Shown here: piece by piece, positions 6,747-61,300 of the stretch | How positions within the stretch are numbered: the stretch's first letter is position 1 | How the letters are laid out: each line of letters opens with the position of its first letter | NCBI GenBank assembly: GCA_947561715.1 | Contig: OX387204.1 | Coordinates: forward strand, 1,865,001 to 1,929,000 | Source: Ascidia mentula | Lineage: Eukaryota; Chordata; Ascidiacea; Phlebobranchia; Ascidiidae | Direction of reading: 5' to 3' | Length of the DNA stretch: 64,000 nt | The notes under the pieces: generated by a model | What the model saw: the letters and a program-made list of their open reading frames with translations, nothing else | What the model was told of the DNA's origin: nothing | Databases searched by the model: none | Position numbers and translations under genes: made by a program

Positions 6747-8980
6747 AATTACAAAGATTCAATTAAAGAACGAATTTTCTCCGGTTATTCAACATCTTCG
6801 TTGATAATTTTATGAAAACAAACTAATTTCCATCTAGATAACGGATATTGGATGTGTTTGTATATTTGGAAACAAATATGTGGTCTGCGTTTTCCAAATC
6901 AACTCATGTTGTTTGGGTCGGCCCGTGCAAGATGCCTTCGATAAAAAACGGGCTTTTCGTAATTTAAATGTAGTAACGGCCAATATCATACAAAACCTGT
7001 ATGCAAGATGACAATACACTTCCCATATTCGCATACTTTTTATTTTTAAATTTGCGACAATAAAGATATATTGTGTGTCGTCTGTCGGCTTTGGGGGTTG
7101 GCAGTTTTCCTAAATTTCGAGTTCCTTGCCCGTTGAACCAGTTGTATAATAATCGAACTATTTCGTGCTGTAATTTTGTTCGCAAACACTAGACATCCTC
7201 ACAAACCGAACATAATGTTTCGACAATTTAAATCTTTTAAATTATCTTTGCATAAACGAACAATCCACTAAATGCATGGATTAAGATGGAAAAAATACAC
7301 TTTAAATAAACTGCCACTCAATAAAAGGTTGAGGGCAACGGTAGATAGGGCATTTCAGCGTTGTCCGCAAAATTGCCAAGCATAGCCAGCACCACAGAGC
7401 CAAGGAGTTAGGAGCAGATGATTAGTTGTGTGGTATCCCCCGTCTGTTTTCAATTGGCGCTTTTAGCGTCTGTCATTTAAAGGAAAAGTGCAATTCCGGA
7501 GCAAACCTACTCGGTGATTTTGTCGTACGGCGGTGCAGCGCAGAGACTGGCACAAGAATAAGCACATTCCAATATACAATTGTGGCTTCCTACAACGACA
7601 CAATGACGATTATTACGCACAATGCTTTGAAGTGGGAAGCGCTAGTCCTGCGAAACATCGCGACATAACAAGATTTCATTGGAGTTTCGGGAAAATGTTG
7701 TACAACGTGTGTCGGTTGATCCGAAGAAGACGCGTGGTTTTAGCCACGTACGTAACAAAGTATTTGAGACCGCGTAAAAATCAGGAACATAATTGCTTTC
7801 TGAGGTAAATTACAGTTGTAACATCAGATGTCTAAATAGTTCAAAAAAAATTAAACATTTTCAAAAGCAAAATTATGACTAAAGAAATTTGTTTGTAAGC
7901 TTAAAACTTATACACATCTGCCGGTTGAGGCGAAGTTTCGTGGCAATAAAATACCAATGACCAACGCATGTTCATTAAAATCAAAAACAAATTTTGTGTC
8001 TCCGAACAGGTTGGTAAACAAGCTGTGTGACGAGATGTTTTCAAGAAATTTGACATAGTTTGGAAATTGAATTTAAACGTTTTCCGCGAAGAGACACGAA
8101 GGAATCCGCATAATCCATGGGCGACCTCCGCGGGGCCACGTGGGAGGCCGACCTTGAGCGGTCGACGCAGTTTGAAGGTCAAGTCGAAGTAAGTTCACGT
8201 TTGCGGACAACGAGCCCGATATGGAAGTTTCAAGAGTCAATAACCCGACCACCGAAAGTTGAAGTCAAGTGCGAAAATATAACGATGCCTGGCAACAATA
8301 CTTAAAGTATTTATATCGTACAAACAAACAAGCGTGCACGTTGGATGCAAATGAATAAAAAATATTGCCATTCAGTTGTTATGCTGCGGGAACATGTCAG
8401 AAATGGGTGACGTAAAAGTGTTTAGTTTATTTGCATCCAACGAGTCGGTATGTTTTTATGTGAATGTTTGATCACATTTTCAGCGAAAAACCAAAAAAAA
8501 ACTGGAAATTTTATTTGCATAACAGTCCAGAAAATAATTGACTTTAAATTTTCCGGCACAACGAAGTTTAACTTTAATGAGGCAAAAAGCTGACATGCGC
8601 AAGCGGACAGCATGTAATAAGTATAAATACATGCTGCTGTTGCAAAACTTTAAGTATATGACAATTGAATTCGTCGTAGGTGTTGGTTTCTATCATCACG
8701 AAATAATTCCTATCCAGCTGGTTACATCGTTATAACGATTGACACAAATAAGCGGGACAAATGAAAATGGAATGACAATGGCTACATTCGAAAATAAGTC
8801 GACTCATTGTCGATAACAAAGGAACGTTAAACGTCCAATAAACAGTCAAATCATTGGGCATTGTGACGTAAATTTAGGAATCCGAGGTATGTCGATCCTA
8901 TCGGTTTGAAATTAAAAGCAAACGCACACAAGCATAAGGAATGTGCCTGCTAGTGTGAAAGCTAGCACAGTGCCACTCAA

Positions 8981-9041
8981 CAGCTGCACTGATGAGACCT
9001 TACAGGTCGAAACAGTGCGTGTACACACCCTGTCTGCAGCT
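8981..9041 (+). ncRNA. Type I hammerhead ribozyme, apparently intact
   Basis: All conserved parts are present in order. Stem I 5' strand AGCTGCA (8982-8988); core CTGATGA (8989-8995); stem II GACC-TTACA-GGTC (8996-9008); GAAA (9009-9012); stem III built from CAG (9013-9015) and CTG (9030-9032) with an inner GTG/CAC helix; cleavage triplet GTC (9032-9034); stem I 3' strand TGCAGCT (9035-9041), a perfect 7-bp complement of the 5' strand. Predicted cut is after 9034. Just upstream is a small hairpin, TGCTAG (8948-8953) with CTAGCA (8962-8967). Related copies with the same upstream flank lie in introns at 17.2 kb and 28.0 kb, so it belongs to a dispersed repeat. It is not inside any recognised gene. 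Confidence 0.85.
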
Positions 9042-10249
9042 TTGCAATATTATGGCTTTTTTTTGCATATAAGGAATGTATTTGTAGAATAATCTTTGTG
9101 TAAGAAGATTTTTATTTTGATGCTTAATCCTTTTTTGCAGGAAGTGATTATACCTTGGTTTGGTATATATATTAGACAGTCATGAACGCCGTTCTGGTAA
9201 AATATTTCTTGAATTCAACAGAATTCAACTAATGGTGTTTCCCAAATACTTATGAGAAACTCAAATTTATTTGCTTATTAAGGAAATCTTAACAATAGTT
9301 TCTTTTTCGTGTAAATTCAAAGTATTTTTTTACTTTCGCTACTGGTTTTACCTCAACGTTCAATTTTGCGTTCGGAATGGCGTCATTTCCAAGGAATACT
9401 GAACCCGAATACCAACAACTATTTGGGATAAACAAGTATCACCATCAAATGTATAACTGGCGATGCATTTAAACCTAAAAAAATCACAAATTGCCGCATT
9501 TGGCATTGGGGGCGTACTCTATACAATACTTGTGATTGCGCTTAATTGAGACGGTTTTATAAATATAAATTTTCTATAAAAACACACGTTTTATTAAATC
9601 TTCCTGTTATAGAATGTTGCTGCACATTTGCGGTTATGACGTCACTGAGAGTTCGGATCGGGTCATATATTTTGATAACGCGCGATTTTCTCGTTCATAT
9701 TTGGAAGTCGGCAGACAGTTTTCATTTTGGAGATCAAATGAGGACAATACAGCAGTTGTACAAACCTGATGTAATGTGTATGTTATATTGGAACTGTAGT
9801 GCGCAATTTCGTTTGGACAGGTTGTAATTAAAAACCGGAACGAGTGGTTTTCAAAACACCAAAACATTCGTTTCAACTGCAATTACAACCGAAGATACTT
9901 CTGTGTTCATTTTCGTTGTAGCCCGCGAGAATCTGGTCCTTCGCAAGACTTACAGTAGTGCAGGTACATTAGTTTGGTCCAAATGTGTGTTTTCGGCGTT
10001 AATTAGCAATTTTAACAATTCTGGAAGAGCGTTTCCCAGAGTGGGTTCAAATACTAATGGTTACATGAGCTACTATCTAGTTTTCAGCAAACACTGGTGA
10101 GCATGAACAAACGCACAAACCAAACGAAAACAAATCCCTTGAAATTTTAAGAGTTTCTTGTCATCTTAAACAACCCTTGCAGGGTTCGGCGGACAAAAAA
10201 GTCAGGGCAACACTGCTGCAGAACCTTCAATCTTGTTCACTTCATTGCC

Positions 10250-14900: not shown

Positions 14901-17900
14901 ACAGCTTATGACAGCTGAGGCCAGGAAGAATGCGAATGTCCGGACAACAGGAAATTAAGTAGACTGCTCGTCGATTTAGTAACCGTCGCGTCGTGTACAA
15001 TTTTAGCAGCAATATGATCAATGTTTACAGCAGTTGTACCACAGGGTGAAGTGGCCGAGTAGACTCGTGAGGCGACCGGTTTTTGTTATGTTTTAGCGCA
15101 TACCTCGCACGTCTGTGTGTATAAATACCACTTCGGCAAGGTTTAAAACCAGTGGAAACTTTACATGAGAACATGAAAGTTTTGGAGTAACTTGAAACAA
15201 TCATACAGATCCGGATCTTTGGCGTAACTTGTTTGGGTCATAATACCACACAAGGATTCCCAGTTAATAAGTATACAAGTGTTACGTAAGAAGCAAGTTG
15301 ATCGTTCCTAGGCTTATGTGTTTACTTAGTCGGTAAAACGTGCTTTGCAAACGCACCGTTCAGTCGATTCTGCGCTGCGTTAAAAGTTGTATGGGGCTTG
15401 TGTTATGCATATATCCACAAAGGCTTATGCACATCTTTCAATACCGGTATATCGGTACATTAACTGACCTCCAGTGAAAGTTTTTTCGTAAAGTTTTGTA
15501 CAGGAAACATATCGTTCAGTAGTTCCTGCCCGCGTTCAAAACATAGCATTTATTTGTCTTAGGGAATGCATAGAGATATAAAGGTCGGAGTTTCTGCACA
15601 TGTCGGTCATTAAATGGACATTCTGTTGTTAACCTCCAGTACACATGTTTGTGGGGATTTAAAGCCTTGCGCAGGAAAAACAGGGCGGTTGTACAAATTT
15701 GACCAATCAGCGTCGAGCCCTTGGGGGCCGACCGACCACGTAAGGTGCAGTGATTCGGACTTTGTGCGGGTCAAAGTTGCCGTAAAGCCGGAATGTAAAC
15801 AGGGTATAGTTGGTTGGCACAGCGACCTCAATGCACGTACGCAATATCGGGATTCCTTTCCCTGATGGCAGATCAGAAATTCTGAGCAGCAACGACAGTG
15901 GTGGGAGCAGCAATGATAATAATAATCAAAGAACAAGTAAAACCATCTTTTCCATAAAGTTACGCGATCTGGTTTCAAACGTTGAGCAAATCAATACTCA
16001 GAATATGTTATGGTATCCTCCCGTCGTGCAATGGTCGAAGCAGCAGAAATATGATGTTTTTTCCGCTTTAACTTTTAGAACACATACGGCCCCCGACTTG
16101 ATTTCTTGCGGTTCTTCATCGTTTCAAATATAATATTAGGTTTGTTATGTACAAGTTACATATCAGATATTGACGATGTCTTGAAGTAAAGGCAAAATAT
16201 ATATGTCAGAAAAAAGACAATCATATAGAAAATTACTTAGGATTTTTTCCAATACATCTTGTGGAAAAAAACAGATACTAAGTCTTTGTTGCTCATCAGC
16301 TTGTTTGGTGATTTTAACACTGTATCAAAGAGTTTTTTATGTGCAGTTTAAATGTTTTAGAGAAGCAATACATTCGTCGGTATGGCGTATGTGTTTCAGC
16401 TACCGTCAATCGCAGTTCAGCAAGCATTATTTTTAAACTTGTGATTTGACAGCTTTTGTTGAAACAGTATTTTGTCCCAGGATGTGCACGGTCTCTGACC
16501 ACTCGGACCTATAATGTTGCATGTAAGGTGTGGGTTGGTTTGTTTTTGTTTCTGAACGAGAACTAAAAGAAAGCATATGTCAAAAACGAGACGAATTTGC
16601 AAATATTTAACTTGCGTAAAGTTGTTCAAACAACTTGCAGACCCCCCGATAACACAACGTTGTCGAACTCCATGAACAAATATAGCTTTCCCATAGGTAG
16701 AATTGCGCTGCAGTGAGGTGCGTGGTAGTATTCAGTCTAGCCAGGTTGGTTTTGTGGCAAAAGTTGCAAAATGTATAACGATTAGGTTTTGTTGCAAATT
16801 GCAAAATGTACGACGATTAGCGCAGAACCAATTTTTCCAAGCTTAGTTGTAGACAAAACAAAGTGTACATTTGTATTTCGTCAATGCTGTAAAATTACTC
16901 TTCAACCTACTTGATATATCGTATACTGACGAAGTTTGACTTTTCAGAACGCACCACAAAGGGTTATCCAAGGTATGCCACCATTCAGTTAGCCATGGTG
17001 ATAAAGTACGACCGGCCACCAGATGGCGGGTGGGGGTGGGCGATAGTGTTCACCACCACGATGACGTACGCCATAGCGTGGGGAATCCCCCGCGCCATGA
17101 GCGTACTTTTTCTCGACCTCCAGCAAAAGTTCGAGACGTCCAATGCGAACACGTCATGGATTACGTCACTGATGTTTGGTTGCTTCGCGTGTGGAGGTAA
17201 GATACATATATTTGTTAGGGGGCCGCGTACAGGGTGTACATACTGTTTCAACCTGGAGGTCTCATCAGTGCAGCTGTTGACTGTAGCACTGGCTAGCTTT
17301 TAAACGAGCAGGCACAGCGAATTCCACTTTGTGGTACCATTCGATCAACGTCTGGGTACCAATCAACAGAGTCGAACCACCATGGAGCACACCATGACGA
17401 GACCTTACAAGTCGAAACCATGTGTGCACCCTGTCTGCAGTTCTCAATCAATATATGACGCTTTTTGGACAGATACGTGTGTGTGGTGATAGAAGGGTGA
17501 CAGGCTGTTTGTAAGTTTGTGCCCCGTCATCGTATATCACAACTCAATACTTTGCCAGGGCTTTTTGTGGAAACCTAGTATCCCGAAACCCCCTTTGAGA
17601 TTCGCTGGTCTGCATATAGTTCATTTTTTAACTTTCCTATGAATTCTCGTAAATTAAGCGTTTATAAACATGATAACGCGTATTCCAGACGACTGTTCAT
17701 TATGCTCTGCTCCATGTAGCGGACAAATATGTACAACAAGGTTGTCATATGACTGTCAACCAATTACTTACGCAAACTTCAACTGGTCGGTGTAAACACA
17801 GCTCACTTAATTGCAGCCCTGTTTGGAAGCCTTGTGACGAGTTTGATCGGACCGCGTCGCACGATGATGCTGGGAGGTCTGATTGCCTGCATGGGAATCA

Positions 17901-23900: not shown

Positions 23901-26464
23901 GTGGTATCTCTGAATAGTTCGGTTTCGTGTCAGTCTCTGTCTGGTGGCTCGCGTGGTTTCTGTGCTCAGGGGTGTGAACGGGTCGCTCGGATACCTTTCC
24001 AAAGCTGAAACACATTAAAGAACTCTTTACATTCAAGCTTTGGGGATGAAAAAACCTTTGTACTTTAACACAAGGAGTTTCCACGTCCGGCTTACTGCGT
24101 GTTTATTTTACTGGTCTGGTGTATCGCTTTAACAAAGCGCTTTGAGCCAAGGTAAATATTATGCCATGCACAAGACCAGGTAAAGCATACCGCACGTATT
24201 TCAACCATCACTGCTCTGCGTGGGTTACATTTTTGTTTCTTATTTAAGCCCCTAAAACAATAAAATTACATTGCTTGCATGAATGCAGACGGGGAGTTAC
24301 TACATTTGTCCGCCCATATTCACTAATAACTAAAAATTACAAAATATTTTTGTTCTATTATTAGTGGTAGACCTTTAGAAAACTACAGAACATATAGTTT
24401 CGACCAATAAGAGCTCCTCAGTGCAACTGGTGCCGATGGCCCTGGACTACCTGGTAAACAAGTCAGGCAAGATTTTTTCCACCTTGTGGTACTTTGCAGT
24501 CGACTAGTTTCTTTGACAAATAAAACGCGGAATGCATAAAACCCTTTAAAGATCATTGACGCTTGATTGCGGACACTTGAACGCGTAACCGTAAACTATA
24601 ACACGCTAAAGGGCACGCATGCCCCAGGCTAAGGTTTACAATCTTAGACAAACCTCATAAAGTCTCATATTGCGGTCAGCACTAGGATTTACAGCGGGCT
24701 ATAAAATCACCTTTGGAAGCAGCAAAGTGACTTGTCGATAGTTTAGAACGAGAGCAATTGAAAATCTGAGAAAAGCTGAACGCTTGCTGTTGTACATTTG
24801 TAACCGTCTACATTAAGCAGGTTTGAAAGGATTTTTTAGTTTAGCAATGAAATTTTAGGTTTTTGATGCATTTAGAGACGGGCACAAATATTTTGAGAAA
24901 AATGTTCGAATTTTGCAGCGACTGGTGATTATTTTAGTCGAAAAGAATTACGGCGTGAAAGTCCTGCCAAGTTATCAGAATGATATAAGGTTGACGAAAG
25001 CATGTGTGTATATTTTGGATGCCTAGATATGTTTGTTTCAAGGAACCAAAACAAAGACGTCAAAGATCCAACATAAAGCTCCTCCCACAGACAAGAATAA
25101 TGAATGGTCGCCATCATGTTGTGTAAAATCTAACAAACAAATGGAACTCGACACCAGCGTAAGCTTGTAACCAGACAAAGGGTGTCCTCTGTCGGTCCTG
25201 CGATGGAATGAAAACGGCCATTTGTCTAAAACGACCATACCTATAATCGCCCATATTTTCAAATAGCAAAAGTTGCATTGTGACATATGAATCTGACGTT
25301 CTTCTGGTGAAAAACAACAAGTATACACCTTTTGTCTAAAAAAGATTGTATTTTGTCACCAGAAGAACGTCAGATTCGTATTTCATTATGATACCTGGTG
25401 GTCAAAACCTATTTTCAGTTTTAAAAGTTGCATTGACGTGTGCCAAAACTATAAGACAATTCGAATCCAAATCAAACATATATAGTTTAAAGACACGTCA
25501 TAGCTACGCAGTTATGTGCAAAAAACCTGCCTGCTTCAGTAAATACGTGGAAGCAACATCTTTTACAGGACCAGAAATTCAACACAATGATTTCAGCCGT
25601 CAAATCCCACACCACAAGAATTAAACTTGTGATGAACTTGCGATGACCACGAATTAAAATCAGTGAGCAACGCCAAGCTGTCCCGCGATTATGTAATCTC
25701 TCTTATGTGTGGTGCATCTTGATCACGTTTTGGACACGCAATAACCACACTCCCGAAAAACGTAAATTACCGGTTAAGCGAGTTTACCGCAGTTCGCTTA
25801 AAAAGGTGAGCTTAGGACGCAAGAACACGTATTTAGCGTATTGCTGCGGTGTGTGCTGATAAGAAGTTTCAGGTGTTTGATGCTGTTGTTACTTGAGCTT
25901 AAACCAGAAAACAGTATTTAAAGTTTGCATTTTGACGAGCCAGATATTAAAATTAGAAATATTTAGCAAGGTATTACTACATTCCTAGAATATATTTGTA
26001 TAACGAGCTGGACATGGCAAAAAACTGGATTCTCACATGTGTACATGAAGTCTCTGTGCAGCACTGGCTGGGTTGAGGTCCATAGTAACTGGAACTGGGA
26101 GTTATCTCCCATTAAAATGAGGTTTTCGAGAATCTGGCATCTCTGCAAAAACGAAAAGCCGCCAAATTAAAACACAATCATTAAGTGATAAAGTGCACAA
26201 ATTTATGGCAAATTGTTTGCTTGCCTCATCATGGGACCAATTTTCAAACCAAATCGCCAATTCATCCAGTTGTTTTTCAAATTCGATATCAACATAGTTT
26301 TGTTTCTCCAGATTTTCATCTGTAGAGTCCAATATTTTGTGATCTGCACTGCTTCTGTGTTTGCATCTTTCGTTTCTATTTGATGCTTTGTGAGAAAAAC
26401 CAACTACGGGAAACTCAACGGGTTGAATTTCGGGAGAAACACGTGCTTCGTATTCTGAAATCAT
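11902..26464 (-). CDS. F-box / seven-WD40-repeat protein, 13 exons, 685 aa
   Basis: Exons (minus): 26464-26199, 26140-26037, 24004-23835, 23425-23277, 23119-23004, 22580-22375, 21726-21527, 21277-21163, 20962-20774, 14673-14551, 12451-12267, 12205-12104, 12034-11902; total 2058 nt, all phases agree. Residues 302-355 form an F-box (DLLSLLPPNVAYKILSYL, CAKVCCYW). From about 400 to the end come seven WD40 repeats, each closing on a W-D/W-x signature (VRVWNL, VKIWRM, VKLWDM, IRMWRV, ITIWEH, IKYWNI, IRVWDF), enough for a seven-blade propeller. Such proteins are substrate receptors of SCF (Skp1-Cullin1) ubiquitin ligases: the F-box binds Skp1, the propeller binds the substrate. A helical WF/WY-x-x-W module precedes the F-box, as in FBXO16, FBXW7 and FBXW2, and a second copy lies at residues 68-120. 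Which vertebrate FBXW is the ortholog is not clear. Weak points: donors at exon 5 (GTTGGT) and exon 6 (GTTGCA), and the exon 11 acceptor. Intron 9 (14674-20773) contains a transporter gene on the other strand. Confidence 0.85.
16995..20265 (+). CDS. SLC16-type (monocarboxylate transporter family) protein, 5 exons, 526 aa
   Basis: Exons: 16995-17196, 17817-17957, 18254-19051, 19559-19849, 20117-20265; every junction splits a codon after the first base and the total is 1581 nt. The start carries the SLC16 signature PPDGGWGW (residues 8-15) at the head of TM1. Further family features are the TM4-5 stretch GIGFGFTYCNATSQLGMYF followed by DKKRALVFGIATIGAPLGG, a long polar, lysine-rich loop between TM6 and TM7 in exon 3, and in the second half the YFGGKIPKEK and GPPLTGYLADVTGNY segments. 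SLC16 proteins are 12-TM major-facilitator transporters; members carry lactate/pyruvate, thyroid hormone, aromatic amino acids or remain orphans. The substrate cannot be read from the sequence. The whole gene lies within intron 9 of the F-box/WD40 gene, on the opposite strand. A good acceptor (ending 16947) precedes the start codon, so there is probably a 5'-UTR exon or a trans-spliced leader. Confidence 0.9.
17221..17277 (-). ncRNA. Hammerhead ribozyme copy, core intact
   Basis: Read on the minus strand: stem I AGCTGCA, core CTGATGA (17268-17262), stem II GACC-TCCA-GGTT (one G.U closing pair), GAAA (17249-17246), stem III CAG...CTG, then the triplet GTA instead of GTC. The stem I 3' strand is CGCGGCC: the pair next to the cut is a mismatch, but five of the next pairs hold, one as G.U. 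GUA is allowed by the NUH rule, so weak activity is possible. The flank upstream of the ribozyme (GCTAGC..AGTGC..CAACAG) matches the 9.0-kb copy. It lies antisense in intron 1 of the transporter gene. Confidence 0.7.
17392..17440 (+). ncRNA. Decayed hammerhead ribozyme copy
   Basis: Stem II region GACC-TTACA-AGTC, GAAA (17414-17417), stem III ending CACCCTG and cleavage site GTC followed by TGCAG are recognisable. The core reads ATGACGA instead of CTGATGA (first invariant C lost), stem II has one mismatch and the 5' side of stem I does not pair. It should be inactive. It faces the copy at 17221-17277 in opposite orientation, in the same intron. Confidence 0.6.
19112..19389. repeat. hAT-like nonautonomous element (MITE), about 280 bp
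   Basis: The left end TTGGTATTCAACCTTTTTG (from 19114) and the right end CCTGGTCGAGAACCACTG (19371-19388) are imperfect inverted repeats of the CAGTGGTTCTCGACC type seen in hAT-derived MITEs. The left part resembles 6672-6746. It sits in intron 3 of the transporter gene, between exons ending 19051 and starting 19559. No target duplication could be fixed by eye. Confidence 0.55.
25289..25377. repeat. Perfect 22-bp inverted repeat with 45-nt spacer
   Basis: 25289-25310 (GAATCTGACGTTCTTCTGGT plus GA) is exactly the reverse complement of 25356-25377. It lies in intron 2 of the F-box/WD40 gene (26036-24005). Probable ends of a tiny foldback element or an inverted duplication. Confidence 0.85.
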
Positions 26465-27472: not shown

Positions 27473-30001
27473 ATGAAAGATAACAAAGAAGAAGAATCCA
27501 ACGACGCCATGAAGAAGGAATCCTTATTTGTCAAGTATATGAGAGTTGTAGGAGTGGTTGCCTTGTATTGGTCTGTCAGTATTAGCATGGTATTCCTCAA
27601 CAAATACCTTCTAAAGGTTGGTAAAGTTTTTTTTTTCATATAACTTATAACTGGGCCTATAGATAAAACATCACCAATGCATGATTAGTATTTTTCACCC
27701 TGGCCTGTATCTAATTATAGTGTTTGGTCAAATACAGATGTAGGCAAAAACTACCTAACCCTTGTAATACTTTCGAAACGTAAGTGCCAGAAGAGCAATT
27801 CCTATTATTGCCCAAGTATATATTTATCACAGAGTGAGGATTTAAAGTTGAACGCCCCACTGTTTGTTACATGGTTCCAGTGTGTCGTGACTGTCACCCT
27901 CTGCTGTATATGCAGTAACATTGCCTCAAGGTTAGATGCAATTAATTTTTTATTTCATAATTATCAGTGAACTGCTTACAGTTGTACACAGTGTTTCGAC
28001 CTATCAGGTCTCATCACAACTGTCTGCAGCTCACTAAATTGGCTCATTGCCTGTTCATGATTGTTTTTTTCCAGTTTTCTCCTGTATAATATATTATATA
28101 GTATTTTTTTAAATATATTAATAACTTAGTGTTAGTTTTTGTATTCTTGGTATCATTTCTTGGTTGAAACAGCTAAAAATTAATTAAATAATTGCTTAAT
28201 CTTTCAGTTGTCCTGGATCGTTAACATTCCCCGCATTAACGTTTGATTACAAACTGTCACGAGAAGCTCTTCCACTTAGTGTTGTCTTTGTGAGCATGAT
28301 CACACTGAACAACTTGTGTCTGCTTGAAGTTGGTATTGCTTTTTATACAGTGGCAAGGTCTTTGGTCACTATTTTCAGCCTTATTTTCACATACATCATC
28401 TTAGGTGAGTGCTGTCTGACTTTATTTGCGCACATTTTTTTAATACAGATATATGTCTGCATACTATATTTATAATATGACTGTGCAAATAAGTCAGGAT
28501 ATTATCTGTATATTTCAAGTGGACAAGTTTAAGTATATGTCTGTATCCTGTATTATATGTATCCTGTTTATTGTCTGTATATTTTTCGGTCACATCCGTA
28601 TGTCTGTTTGTATTTTGTTGCTATTGTGTGTAGGATTACAATATGTATTTATTTTATGTTTTATATGGGTAGGTTCAAAGTGGTCCGTATTGAAATGTGC
28701 AATATTAATTTTGTTTCATTTACAGGTAAAAAGACAACATTTCCTGCACTTGTCTGTTGCTTTGTAATTATTGGTGGATTTTTTCTTGGTGTCAACCAAG
28801 AGGGGGAGTCCTTAGGTATGAAAGTTTTAAATTATTGTCTCATAACCTGGTTTAACTATTTTACCATTTTGTAACTTCAGAGGGTGTGTCTGTAAAGGGG
28901 GTTTTGTATGGTGTTGCTGCGAGTGCCATGGTTGCCTTGAATGCCATTTACATTAAAAAAGTGCTGCCATCCATGGATGGTGACATATGGAAACTTACCT
29001 ATTACAACAATGTCAATGCCTGCACAATGTTCCTGCCATTGATATTCCTTTTTGAGGTGGGTCATTAAAACTGATTGTGTAAATTTTTAGCTAGTGCTGT
29101 TAACTGTTTTTTTTTTATCAGCAAAACAGGCATTTTGCCATACTACTTGTTAAAAATTGTAATAAACATTTGTTAGTTTTTTGTGAAAATTACTGCCAAA
29201 TGCAGTTGTGTTAAATGACATTTTTGCAGCATTTGTTGCACCATTTCTGTAGTATTCAATTTGGGTCTGGGTTTATGCCAAAAATGGCTAATTACTATAA
29301 TTATGTTTTGTGCAGCTCAAAGAAATATGGAGTTTTGAGCGATTGTTTGATACTGTGTTTTGGATGTACATGTTTGCATCCGGATTCTTTGGCTTTATTA
29401 TGGGTTTTGTGGTTGGTTTGGAAATTAAAGTTACAACTCCTGTTACGCATACAGTCAGTGGAGTGGCAAAGGCTTGTCTGCAGACGGTCATTGCTGTAGT
29501 TTATTATCATCAGGTAAATTATTGTTTGTACATATATTATTTCTCAATGCTTGGTATTTGCCCCATGACAGTGTTTTTATCTGGAATCATTGTAATATTA
29601 GCTGAAAAGTTGATTTACTATTTCATAATCAATTCAACGTTTAATTATGGTTTGACTATTTAAGTTAACCTCAAAAAGCCCAAGGTCAAACACTCTATAT
29701 TGTGAGTGACCTTTCAGGCGCTCTGAAACTACAACAGCTGAAACGTCGAAAATCAATAGCTATTGTCAGAAAGTCTTCTTGAGCTAAATTTGCAATATGT
29801 CTGGCAGTGTCAGCAACAAACTGTTTGACTTTTTAGATTAAAACTGTTTTGTGGTGGCTTTCCAACATGCTTGTGCTGGCTGGAACTGGCTCCTACTCTG
29901 TTGTGAAAAGCATTGAGATGAGGAAGGAGCACAACAAGCTCGCAAACAAATCTATTGATGAAAGACCCAGCGACAGAAAAGAATCTCGTCCGCTGGTTTA
30001 A
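27473..30001 (+). CDS. SLC35C1: GDP-fucose transporter 1 (SLC35C1), 8 exons, 355 aa
   Basis: Exons: 27473-27616, 27833-27930, 28208-28404, 28726-28815, 28881-29056, 29316-29513, 29837-30001; a further split of 28208-28404 is not needed, so seven coding exons are seen. Total 1068 nt, phases agree. The protein has the ten hydrophobic segments of the nucleotide-sugar/triose-phosphate transporter fold and segments that I recognise from SLC35C1: [19 protein letters not shown] near the N terminus, [59 protein letters not shown] and a C-terminal [18 protein letters not shown]. It imports GDP-fucose into the Golgi lumen in exchange for GMP and so supplies all fucosyltransferases there. Length is close to the vertebrate protein (about 364 aa). 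The C terminus is short and polar. The gene body is strikingly poor in CpG. The header count of eight includes a suspected 5'-UTR exon before the acceptor at 27466. Confidence 0.92.
27970..28030 (-). ncRNA. Decayed hammerhead ribozyme copy
   Basis: On the minus strand: GAGCTGCAG, then GTGATGA (core with first C changed to G), stem II GACC-TGATA-GGTC perfectly paired, GAAA, a partly matching stem III and CTGTAAGC at the expected cleavage point. Loss of the invariant C should abolish cleavage. It lies antisense in intron 2 of SLC35C1 and belongs to the same family as the 9.0-kb copy. Confidence 0.6.
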
Positions 30002-32038: not shown

Positions 32039-32575
32039 CCTGTTTAACTTGTACCTGCTTTGCGTTTCAATACGTTAACTACCGGCTTGTTGCTGATCAG
32101 CTGTTTTTTAAAAGAAAACAAGCGAAATGATGCTCCATAGAAATTACACTGTCAACATATTTTCATTGCAGGCGGGCAAAGGAATAAGCTTGTAATAAGA
32201 TTTTATTACACAATAAATGAAATGGAAGAACAACAAGTAAAAAATTTATGTACAGATCACACAGTTTGTACACTTGAAATATAGATGAAATTTGGTTGCT
32301 CACATGCAACATACCTACTAAATAAAATTGGTTCGCATCACATAAAAGTGAAAGACGGCGGCGTTTACATTGAACTTGTGTTAAACTGTCATATTGAATT
32401 TTAAAGAACTGTTCATTTAGCACAAAAGTTACGTAGAATTTATTGTACATAACCTTGAAGAAAAGTCTCAACGGGTGGCAGACGAAACGTCGGTTAATAT
32501 AAAATCTACACAACTTTTGTGCCAAAGGGACAGTTCTTTCAAATTTACAATCAACAGTTGCACTACGTTAAACTG

Positions 32576-40632: not shown

Positions 40633-40878
40633 ACCAGTGGTCGAAATCTGGTAAAGTTTTTGGTAGAAAGTGCAAATTCAAAAGACGTCGAAACCGGACT
40701 CTAATCAGACGTGGTTAGCTGGACGTCGTATTTACGTCCAAATATGTTCCTTTTTACCAATGGTCGAAATCTGGTACAGTTTTTGGTAGAAAGTGCAAAT
40801 TCAAAAGACGTCAAAACTTGACCCTAATCAGACGTGGTTAGCTGGACGTCCTATTAACGTCCAAATATGTTCGTTGCG
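40633..40878 (+). repeat. 123-bp tandem duplication in the transposon's left arm
   Basis: Two adjacent copies start at 40633 (ACCAGTGGTCGAAATCTGG) and 40756 (ACCAATGGTCGAAATCTGG). They share TTTTTGGTAGAAAGTGCAAA, AAAGACGTC and GTTAGCTGGACGTC at the same spacing and differ at scattered positions. Confidence 0.85.
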
Positions 40879-43125: not shown

Positions 43126-43197
43126 TCCTCGTTAGTATAGTGGTGAGTATCCCCGCCTGTCACGCGGGAGACCGGGGTTCGATTCCCCGACGGGGAG
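43126..43197 (+). tRNA. tRNA-Asp (GTC)
   Basis: A full cloverleaf: acceptor TCCTCGT pairs with ACGGGGA (43190-43196, one G.U), D arm with TTAGTATAGTGGTGAGTA (A box), anticodon stem CCCGC/GCGGG with loop CTGTCAC and anticodon GTC at 43159-43161, T arm CCGGGGTTCGATTCCCCG (B box GGTTCGATTCC), discriminator G. No intron. It is a typical animal tRNA-Asp and should be functional. Confidence 0.97.
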
Positions 43198-58300: not shown

Positions 58301-61300
58301 GACGCGACTTAACAATGCTCCGGTGAACGGCAGATGTTTTTCGCGCGATGCATTCAATTAGCAACGAGTCTCCCCTCCTTGGGCCGCGAGAGCCTCAGGT
58401 TAGAGGAAAAGGTTGAAGCAGGTGCGAGGTCCCTGCTGGCGCCGTTCAATTACCATACGTTAGTTGAACCCGCTGCCGGTTAGGTGAATTTCTCCTGATA
58501 TGGAGCCGTGGAAAAACAACGTCAATAGGTTGCCACGCAGTTTTCTTAAATGCCAGGGAACCGGCAATTTGATATTTTTGTTGTCAGAAATTGCGCGGCC
58601 TTTTTTTAGTCGAGCGCCCTTTGGGAAAGCGAACATAGGGACGAGGATTACGTGCAGGAGATAGCGCTGCATTCTTGGCAAAGCACTCTTGTATGTTGTA
58701 GCCCTCAAAGCGTATCCTATTACCTATTTCACAACGCCTCCATGTCCTTTTGGCCAATGAGCCCCGGGGGTAATTTTAATATTTCTCAATTGACGAAAAA
58801 TGGTTAAAATCCTCAGAAAAGCATTTTATCTCTATCATATAATTTCCTACCACGTTTAACCTAGCACGCTAAGGCTTCTCGTATTCTTGATTTATTGTAA
58901 ATTAGTGAATGAATACATATTATGACATCACAAACTGAAAGTTTATATTATATAAAAACGTTATGCAGACAGATCTAATCCGGGCAACTTTTTTTTTCCT
59001 CAAAAAATGTCAGCACAGCGGGGAATCCGGAAAATTTAACGAAATCAGAAATATATAAGTGGCGAAAAGCATGGAAAGAAACCAGTCTCTAGACTTGTGT
59101 CGACTTCGGGTGTTCAGCGTTCGAATAAACCGGGTCCGACCGTTTAAAGAACGCAGTAAAATAGACGCATCATTTCGTGATGTGCTCAAACCACGCGAGG
59201 GTAGCTCTGGCTATAACGTCACGTGGATGTAAGAGTGAACACTTACAATGACCCAAAAGCCAGCAACGTTGTGTCTGTGAACGCAACGGTGAGGTGGGGG
59301 GGTTGACGTGGCAATGGAAACAAGACCTATCTATATATATATATATTACTCCCCAACCCTGTTTGACCCGAGATTTTCAACCACCACCTGCAATTAATAG
59401 ACCCTCTGCGCCTGTGGCACCTGTCATACCTGTCACTTTCATTGTTTACGGGGCATGTTACGCGTTATGAGTAATCGATAGTGACGTGCATACAACAAAA
59501 CGTCGCATCGGACGGTGCTGTATTACAAACGAATTGTTTCTCGTTAAAATTTAGGCTCGTCGCTGAAAAAAAAAGCTAGGTTCAAAGAGAAGTGAAAACG
59601 TATTCTGTATCGTGTATTCATCAAAATCGTTTGTACTTCTACACTGTAAAGGAGTTACCCCAACTTTTTCTTTCAATTTTAGCTGAATTATCGCGTGCCG
59701 TCCCAACCGTCAGGCGAGGGTCTTCTGCCCAAGTCCAACTCAGAGGATCTTCCTTACCTCCAGAAACGGCCGGGACTCCAGAAATCACAAGAAAGTGAGT
59801 CGTCATGGTTACATGTTTCGTTCACTAATATATAAAAAGAATACCGGAACAACGAGTGCTTGCTACATTTTATTCCACCTGAAACACCAGTGCGTCTTGC
59901 ACAATGATGATAAATTGCCTCAAGACCCAATACCGCCGTTCTGTGGTCAGATAGTGGAACCGTAAATCGGCGGCCCATGAGTTAGAGACCATGTTTTTGT
60001 TTTTGAGAATCGTGTTATATTCCAGGTAACACGAGCCTGTCCATCACAGGTTCTCTTGAGCGATCCAGCTCGGAAGATTCGGGTCTGGCGCCTTCTCCTC
60101 ACGTCGATTCCATTATCATGAAGGAGGCTTTCGCATCCACTGAGAAACTGCAAGGTACGTCATTGAAGTGTGTCAAGTTCGGGCGTCGTAATATGTCTAA
60201 CCATAGGGATCTACATTAACAGTTTGAAACTACGTTCTGTATATTAAAACCAAAGCTAATATGCTGTTTATTTTGTTTAGTTAAGTTGAATGAATAGTTT
60301 TAAAAGTACTGATGATGGGCGCAGTTCGTGTTCGAAACACCTACATAACTTGAGATGATTAACAGCATAATAGCTTTGTCTTTCATATTCAAAGTAATTA
60401 TCTCTTTTGCACCCTCGTTCTATATAATAACCCACATGTCACAAACTGCGGTGACATTTTGGTGCAATTTTTAAATTTTAATTCTTTTGTCATTCTTTCC
60501 TCGCCCCCTTTCCTTTTTTTGCACAACGAACGGAACGTTGACCAAGTTAAAAGTTTTTTGCCAGAAGAGCTTGTGAGTTTATTGAAGATTATGTCAGACT
60601 GCGGCAGAAACGAATTATCTACATTCCAATAACCCTAATGTCACAACCCGCAGTGGAATGTTTTTTTGGTGTAATTTTAGGACGGAGCAATTGTGTGACA
60701 TTTTGGCGTCTATTTCAGGTACACTAGCGTGTAGATAGGAACTATTTTCTTCTGCGGTCACGTTAACATTGCTTTAAATATTGGTATTTGTATGCTGTTA
60801 ATAGAGGCGCGCTAATGTTAGGAGGCCGAAACGCAATACAGTGCTTCGAATTCGACCGGGAACACGGTCCACTTTAAAATAACCATACACGTTAAATGTC
60901 GGCGTGCTTTAATTTACCAAGCGCGTTCGTTTGCCAACTTTCTTTTCTCTTTGCAAGAGTGGGTTTTTTCACTAATGGTTCTTACTTGTCTCACGGAAAT
61001 GATTTTATTACTTTCTCCGGAAAGTGGATCATTTTCTCTTGAAAATTTTTCCTTTTCTATGCAAAACGTTTGACAACGGCTTTAATTTTTTTTCTATAAT
61101 TCAACATGAAATTCAAAAAGGGTAAAAAGAAATGATTCCATTTTGAGAAGTATTGCACATTTAAATTCCACGATCGGTTTAAATTAATTGTTTTTTTTGA
61201 CATGGGATCTTCTTTATTATCAAAACAAATTTCAATTTCGACAGTGCCTGACGCAGTTTCAAAACCTCTGCAAGCTCTTTAACTTCCTTTGACCCATGCA

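Follow-up and report, generated by a model that had tools for sequence, protein, structure and literature searches.

Penelope-type insertion scars of a tunicate retrozyme in Ascidia mentula

We analyzed a 64,000-nucleotide stretch of chromosome 8 of Ascidia mentula (positions 1,865,001–1,929,000; hereafter referred to as the window) bearing a type I hammerhead motif. In this genome, COX1 (contig C79) can be read well only if AGA/AGG are translated as glycine, as in the ascidian code. The motif lies in a 5'-truncated piece of a dispersed retrozyme with a predicted self-cutting RNA, and the copies of this retrozyme probably owe their insertion to a Penelope-like element (PLE), through its reverse transcriptase and endonuclease. 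The object is a tunicate retrozyme, and the new part is its insertion anatomy: in inverted insertions, the two outer 3' ends fall at two different, opposed sites, as in the PLEs of the host. The features on which the analysis is based are as follows.

8934–8944: left target-site duplication (TSD), ATAAGGAATGT, 11 bp
8945–9068, plus strand: 5'-truncated retrozyme copy, 124 bp, single orientation, with a long 3' end at about +34
8948–8967, plus strand: hairpin TGCTAG..CTAGCA, upstream of the ribozyme
8982–9041, plus strand: type I hammerhead motif, predicted cut 9034/9035 (sequence, fold, 74/82 copies)
8982–8988, plus strand: stem I, 5' strand, AGCTGCA, pairing with 9035–9041
8989–8995, plus strand: catalytic core, CTGATGA (sequence)
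8996–9008, plus strand: stem II with its loop, GACCT (8996–9000) and AGGTC (9004–9008) (sequence, fold)
9009–9012, plus strand: catalytic core, GAAA (sequence)
9012–9033, plus strand: stem III with its loop, ACAG (9012–9015) and CTGT (9030–9033)
9019–9026, plus strand: palindrome GTGTACAC in the stem III loop
9034, plus strand: C directly 5' of the predicted cut 9034/9035
9035–9041, plus strand: stem I, 3' strand, TGCAGCT, 7 bp, perfect
9043–9068, plus strand: tail, from the mean short end of the family (about +8) to the long 3' end of the window copy
9069–9079: right TSD, ATAAGGAATGT, 11 bp
17212–17280, minus strand, and 17382–17451, plus strand: diverged inverted pair of related copies
24372–24433, minus strand: weak, decayed related copy (E 0.0059)
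27961–28029, minus strand: diverged related copy, with GTGATGA replacing CTGATGA

The ribozyme and its repeat

The motif has the core residues CUGANGA, GAAA and UH, three helices and an open stem I (sequence, fold). An earlier reading of the letters (hereafter referred to as the sequence-only reading) had reported all the catalytic residues, all three helices, a perfect 7-bp stem I and a predicted cut after position 9034; the sequence agrees on each of these points and on the coordinates. Stem III consists of four pairs, and there is no inner loop within the seven pairs of stem I; tertiary contacts between stem I and loop II are also mostly missing in a published mussel family (PMC7229834). 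Among the 82 full ribozyme copies in the fetched loci, CTGANGA..GAAA was intact in 78, and the core together with the GTH/TGCAG cleavage site was intact in 74. The ribozyme is also kept in a second repeat family (hereafter referred to as family B), the body of which is mostly different from that of the family of the window copy (family A). This conservation of the core and the retention of the ribozyme in family B confirm that the motif is real rather than the chance match that the sequence-only reading had considered very unlikely; self-cleavage is its predicted activity.

The sequence-only reading had also expected an Rfam type I match well above threshold, and this expectation was disappointed. 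The scan of the window yielded no hammerhead at the gathering threshold: the best matches, RAGATH-1-hammerhead (RF03152; 28.3 of 56.3 bits) and Hammerhead_3 (RF00008; 24.9 of 48.5 bits), align at the core residues and score about half the gathering cut-off. Four related loci gave no Rfam matches at E 0.05. Just one feature of the window reaches an Rfam threshold, a tRNA gene at 43126–43197. The minimum-energy fold of the 61-mer is the hammerhead (−19.5 kcal/mol; 15 of 200 shuffled sequences folded equally well), but its centroid is a competing GCACUG/CAGUGC pairing, which also becomes the structure of lowest energy when the sequence is shortened to a 56-mer. In the ensemble of the 60-mer, pair probabilities were about 0.7–0.8 for this competitor versus about 0.2 for stem III. 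Constraining the 291-nt unit to the hammerhead carries a penalty of 1.4 kcal/mol if the RNA is circular and of 3.2 kcal/mol if it is linear. Covariation in 13 family sequences was no higher than in shuffles (141/500 reached the score).

The stem III loops contain palindromes, GTGTACAC in family A and TGGCCA in family B, with shuffle P values of 0.075 for A, 0.019 for its variant L014, and 0.18–0.20 for B, two C and E segments; nine segments were tested, of which D, B_L085 and B_L030 had no palindrome of more than 4 nt. The dimer folds better than two monomers in both families, a result matched by 15 of 200 shuffled loops for A and by one of 200 for B. The palindromes provide hints, as a hypothesis, that the ribozyme might act as a dimer; dimeric hammerheads have been described (PMC7229834, PMC7761336).

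The window copy is 98.5% identical to the 291-bp unit over 130 nt. Genome searches yielded at least 48 matches with positions 8930–9060 and at least 97 with 210 nt from the rest of the unit, excluding the ribozyme (40 candidates scored in each case). The motif is thus carried on a dispersed element, as the sequence-only reading had proposed, and the search that it recommended, for copy number, tandem dimers and flanks, revealed head-to-head tandem arrays with a period of 291 bp. One of these arrays (L009, C70:2551–2555 kb) displays 13 cut sites in total, a run of eight in minus orientation followed by five in plus orientation. Within the window, the copies at 17212–17280, 17382–17451 and 27961–28029 belonged to the training set of the search model that recovers them, and no exact TSD of at least 7 bp was found for the pair spanning 17212–17451. 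The hairpin upstream of the ribozyme, which the sequence-only reading had called conserved, is present in family A but was not seen in family B. An unrelated observation in the window is a tandem repeat at 40633–40872, with a period of 123 and two copies matching at 93%.

By the features tested, the repeat is a metazoan non-LTR retrozyme. It has a unit of 291 bp, a hammerhead in each unit, TSDs of more than 4 bp and no long ORF: in three joined units, the longest frame from an ATG has 70 codons, and stop-free stretches of 96 occur in two frames. The GC content of the unit, 47.8%, is below the limit of 50% in the published text but not below the 45% of the figure legend. As described (PMC7229834), metazoan non-LTR retrozymes also have type I hammerheads, dispersed tandem repeats of about 170–400, a GC content below 50%, TSDs of more than 4 bp and PLEs in the same genome. 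The repeat differs from this description in its tunicate host and in its head-to-head insertions, the 3' ends of which occupy two opposed sites; the words “inverted”, “head-to-head” and “tail” are absent from the main text of that paper. Newt and schistosome hammerhead satellites (PMC7229834, PMC8490949) likewise combine, as described, a type I hammerhead with a short repeat. For tunicates, the one report found lists type I hammerheads at nine loci of Didemnum vexillum (PMC8704543).

Insertion ends of the retrozyme

We mapped 41 family A loci: the window copy and 40 loci picked, not at random, from the genome-search matches. Exact TSDs of at least 9 bp (9–14 bp) flanked 27 of the 41 loci (median over all 41 of 11), whereas only 34 of 1640 mismatched pairs of left and right flanks reached this length. 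Twenty-three loci have a 3' end on each outer side, and their arms are therefore head to head; the other 18 loci are in a single orientation. Sixteen of the inverted loci had a TSD of at least 9 bp, and in 15 of these the two ends were opposed, one lying at +3 to +12 and the other at +33 to +41 past the cut (means of 8.4 and 36.1), leaving a tail of 27.7 ± 3.7 nt on one arm. The long end was on the left in nine of these 15 loci and on the right in six. Random dealing of short and long ends would give at least 15 opposed loci of 16 with P = 2.6e-4. The sixteenth locus (L049) had one long end, with the other at 279. Of the inverted loci outside this TSD set, three (L024, L048 and L054) were short/long by uncorrected ends and four (L025, L046, L056 and L061) had one end elsewhere. 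One end thus lay at neither site in five of the 23 inverted loci, and none of the 23 had two short or two long ends.

Eleven of the 18 single-orientation loci had a TSD of at least 9 bp; 10 of these ended at the long site (30–38) and one (L011) at the short site. The 5' end fell within 4 nt of the cut in three of the 18 (P = 0.017, post hoc), and two of the 18 spanned about one complete turn (P = 0.19, post hoc). In a comparison aimed at a shared template, 24 of 144 variants at multiply covered sites were common to all copies of a locus, against a between-loci background of 260/8093; the remaining 120 were private or partial.

It is very improbable that recombination spread the repeat as satellite or foldback DNA, with the hammerhead being a fossil. 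The tandem arrays, the inverted order, the weak covariation and the alternative fold would all fit such an origin, but the TSDs, the constant 3' end combined with variable 5' ends, and the retention of the ribozyme in two families with differing bodies argue against it. A satellite origin was set aside because of the TSDs and the truncated copies.

Family B provides a second set of ends. The genome search returned at least 44 matches, and six of the 20 loci read were inverted. Three of these (L089, L091 and L106) had TSDs of 8, 12 and 10 bp, with ends at +10 to +17 versus +37 to +47, all opposed. A fourth (L090) had ends at 16 and 42 and no TSD, and in the other two (L092 and L097) one arm each extended into the tail, as judged by eye. 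Among the 14 single-orientation loci, an ungapped script placed six ends at +16, four at 38–42 and four at 20–23, although one of the last group (L095) runs on further by eye. Unlike the situation in family A, single copies with the short end are common in family B. The parts common to the two families in alignment are chiefly the ACCACAAAGTGGAA hairpin, the ribozyme and the tail, ATATTA.TGGCT..TTTGC.

Penelope-like elements and the mover of the retrozyme

A genome search for GIY-YIG endonucleases yielded at least 121 matches (150 of 382 candidates scored), some of which lie in tandem and inverted arrays. Two families, hereafter referred to as PLE1 and PLE2, were compared with the retrozyme. 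The PLE2 frame (L042) matches RVT_1 and GIY-YIG, and the PLE1 fragment (L030) matches GIY-YIG only. Hammerhead-like motifs are present 3' of the endonuclease, GAAACGTT in PLE1 and GAAAGCTT in PLE2.

A search with 102 bases of PLE1 gave at least 41 matches. All five inverted PLE1 loci (L069–L072 and L073/L074) had ends at +46 to +52 versus +75 to +80, TSDs of 11–13 bp and tails of 34, 30, 27, 28 and 25 nt; the PLE1 tail, of 28.8 nt, thus matches the 27.7 nt of the retrozyme. Of 15 further PLE1 ends, nine were at 50–53 and six at 78, three of these six sharing a flank and therefore not being independent. One arm was also extended, by about 33–44 nt (boundaries read by the author), in PLE2 (L040, TSD of 12, and the array L041/L065, TSD of 12) and in L034, from another PLE family (TSD of 13). 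No TSD was found for L031, the ninth inverted PLE locus, so that opposed ends with TSDs of 11–13 bp were observed at eight of the nine inverted PLE loci examined. One PLE2 array (L041–L043 and L065; C67:6132528–6147700) is arranged head to head, with copies 2870 bp apart in each arm, the same layout as in the retrozyme array in L009.

Similar ends are known from other endonuclease-bearing PLEs (PMC3846280, PMC11167929), which share with the retrozyme head-to-head arms, a tail of about 30 nt on one of them, TSDs of 8–13 bp and a hammerhead near the ends. In the rotifer Adineta vaga, a 31-bp tail is present on one inverted pLTR, TSDs are 8–10 bp long, head-to-head order is preferred and pLTRs have carried a foreign gene in trans (PMC3846280). 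The protein of the Anolis PLE (PAc) cuts and extends both DNA strands in vitro, with cDNA starting inside the RNA at two adjacent sites, the interval between which corresponds to the genomic tail (PMC11167929). The retrozyme differs from PLEs in lacking a reverse transcriptase/endonuclease frame, in its four-pair stem III and in its short unit. No long frame (reverse transcriptase/GIY-YIG) was found in the unit that would make it a PLE.

Head-to-head arms, a tail of about 30 nt and a TSD occurred together at 15 of 16 retrozyme loci and eight of nine host PLE loci of the inverted type. As the scars of the retrozyme match those of the host PLEs, it is likely that PLEs copy it around the genome; given these marks and the lack of a long frame in the retrozyme, we infer that a PLE enzyme inserts it. 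Mobilization by PLEs, previously a proposal, is thus strongly supported, with one PLE family having the same tail length. The sequence-only reading had left the carrier open among retrozymes, PLEs and satellites; it can now be narrowed to a retrozyme with Penelope-type scars.

The fixed position of both ends also bears on a second possible mover, a LINE-type enzyme, which we consider improbable. The inverted copies would in that case be products of twin priming. Twin priming would start the inverted arm at scattered places, but the second end, too, keeps a constant position, some 28 nt away from the first, and so it does in the host PLEs. Target-primed reverse transcription in general would account for the TSDs and the 5' truncation, and published authors allow LINEs as movers (PMC7229834, PMC11722881).

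It is also unlikely, if somewhat less markedly so, that the repeat is a solo pLTR or pLTR tandem of another PLE, a deletion derivative rather than a separate retrozyme lineage. PLE pLTRs bear hammerhead-like motifs and tails, solo pLTRs are known (PMC3846280) and the end signatures of the repeat and the PLEs match. Nevertheless, no PLE matching the unit sequence was found: the best match in 15 PLE loci was a stretch of 44 nt at 75% identity (E 0.11) in two of them, which sits inside a retrozyme-like relative near the PLE. The four-pair stem III also sets the ribozyme apart from the motifs seen in PLE1 (GAAACGTT) and PLE2 (GAAAGCTT).

The tails were also compared in sequence. The test against PLE1 gave P = 0.09 for A and 0.044 for B (PLE2 control: 0.61 and 0.993), so the resemblance of the A/B tail to that of PLE1 is suggestive only; even A and B are not connected by this test (P = 0.339), and the A/B tail pattern had no matches in the PLE loci compared. 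Family-B-like relatives of the ribozyme are located no more than a few hundred bases from PLE1 3' ends (L030 931–999 and L085 377–445). The window itself contains a PLE1 3'-end piece at 60305–60394 (about 78–80% identity), with a hammerhead-like CTGATGA..GAAACACC near 60309, and, at 32447–32537, a stretch that matches the end of a further PLE family (L034) at 76–78%.

Proposed route of insertion and its meaning

Cervera and de la Pena (2020, PMC7229834) called PLEs a “strong candidate” for the mover of retrozymes because both have the ribozymes and the tandem arrangement and occur together, and a review from 2024 named LINEs or PLEs (PMC11722881). No title or abstract opening in the literature searched, from which subscription papers were mostly absent, dealt with head-to-head retrozyme insertions with paired end sites.

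We favor, with some confidence, a model in which animal retrozymes are parasites of Penelope elements: the PLE would start cDNA at two fixed sites past the hammerhead, one per strand, and write the ribozyme-cut, probably circular RNA as head-to-head arrays. By analogy with published retrozymes (PMC7229834), multimeric RNA would be cut by the hammerhead into monomers, which would probably then be made circular. A Penelope-like enzyme would cut both strands of the target DNA, and cDNA synthesis would begin at +33 to +41 (long site) on one strand and at +3 to +12 (short site) on the opposite strand, after which the two products would be joined head to head. Priming on one strand only would leave a single 5'-truncated copy, like that in the window.

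Animal retrozymes make abundant ribozyme-cut circular RNAs, and for the copying of these RNAs into DNA an enzyme has so far just been proposed (PMC7229834). The end signature common to the retrozyme and the host PLEs would make the mover readable from any assembly and the role of PLEs testable with purified PLE protein, for which the retrozyme could serve as a compact RNA in studies of how the Penelope enzyme chooses its start sites. If the model is true, the mover that was previously only proposed can be told from the scars, possibly in any animal with retrozymes.
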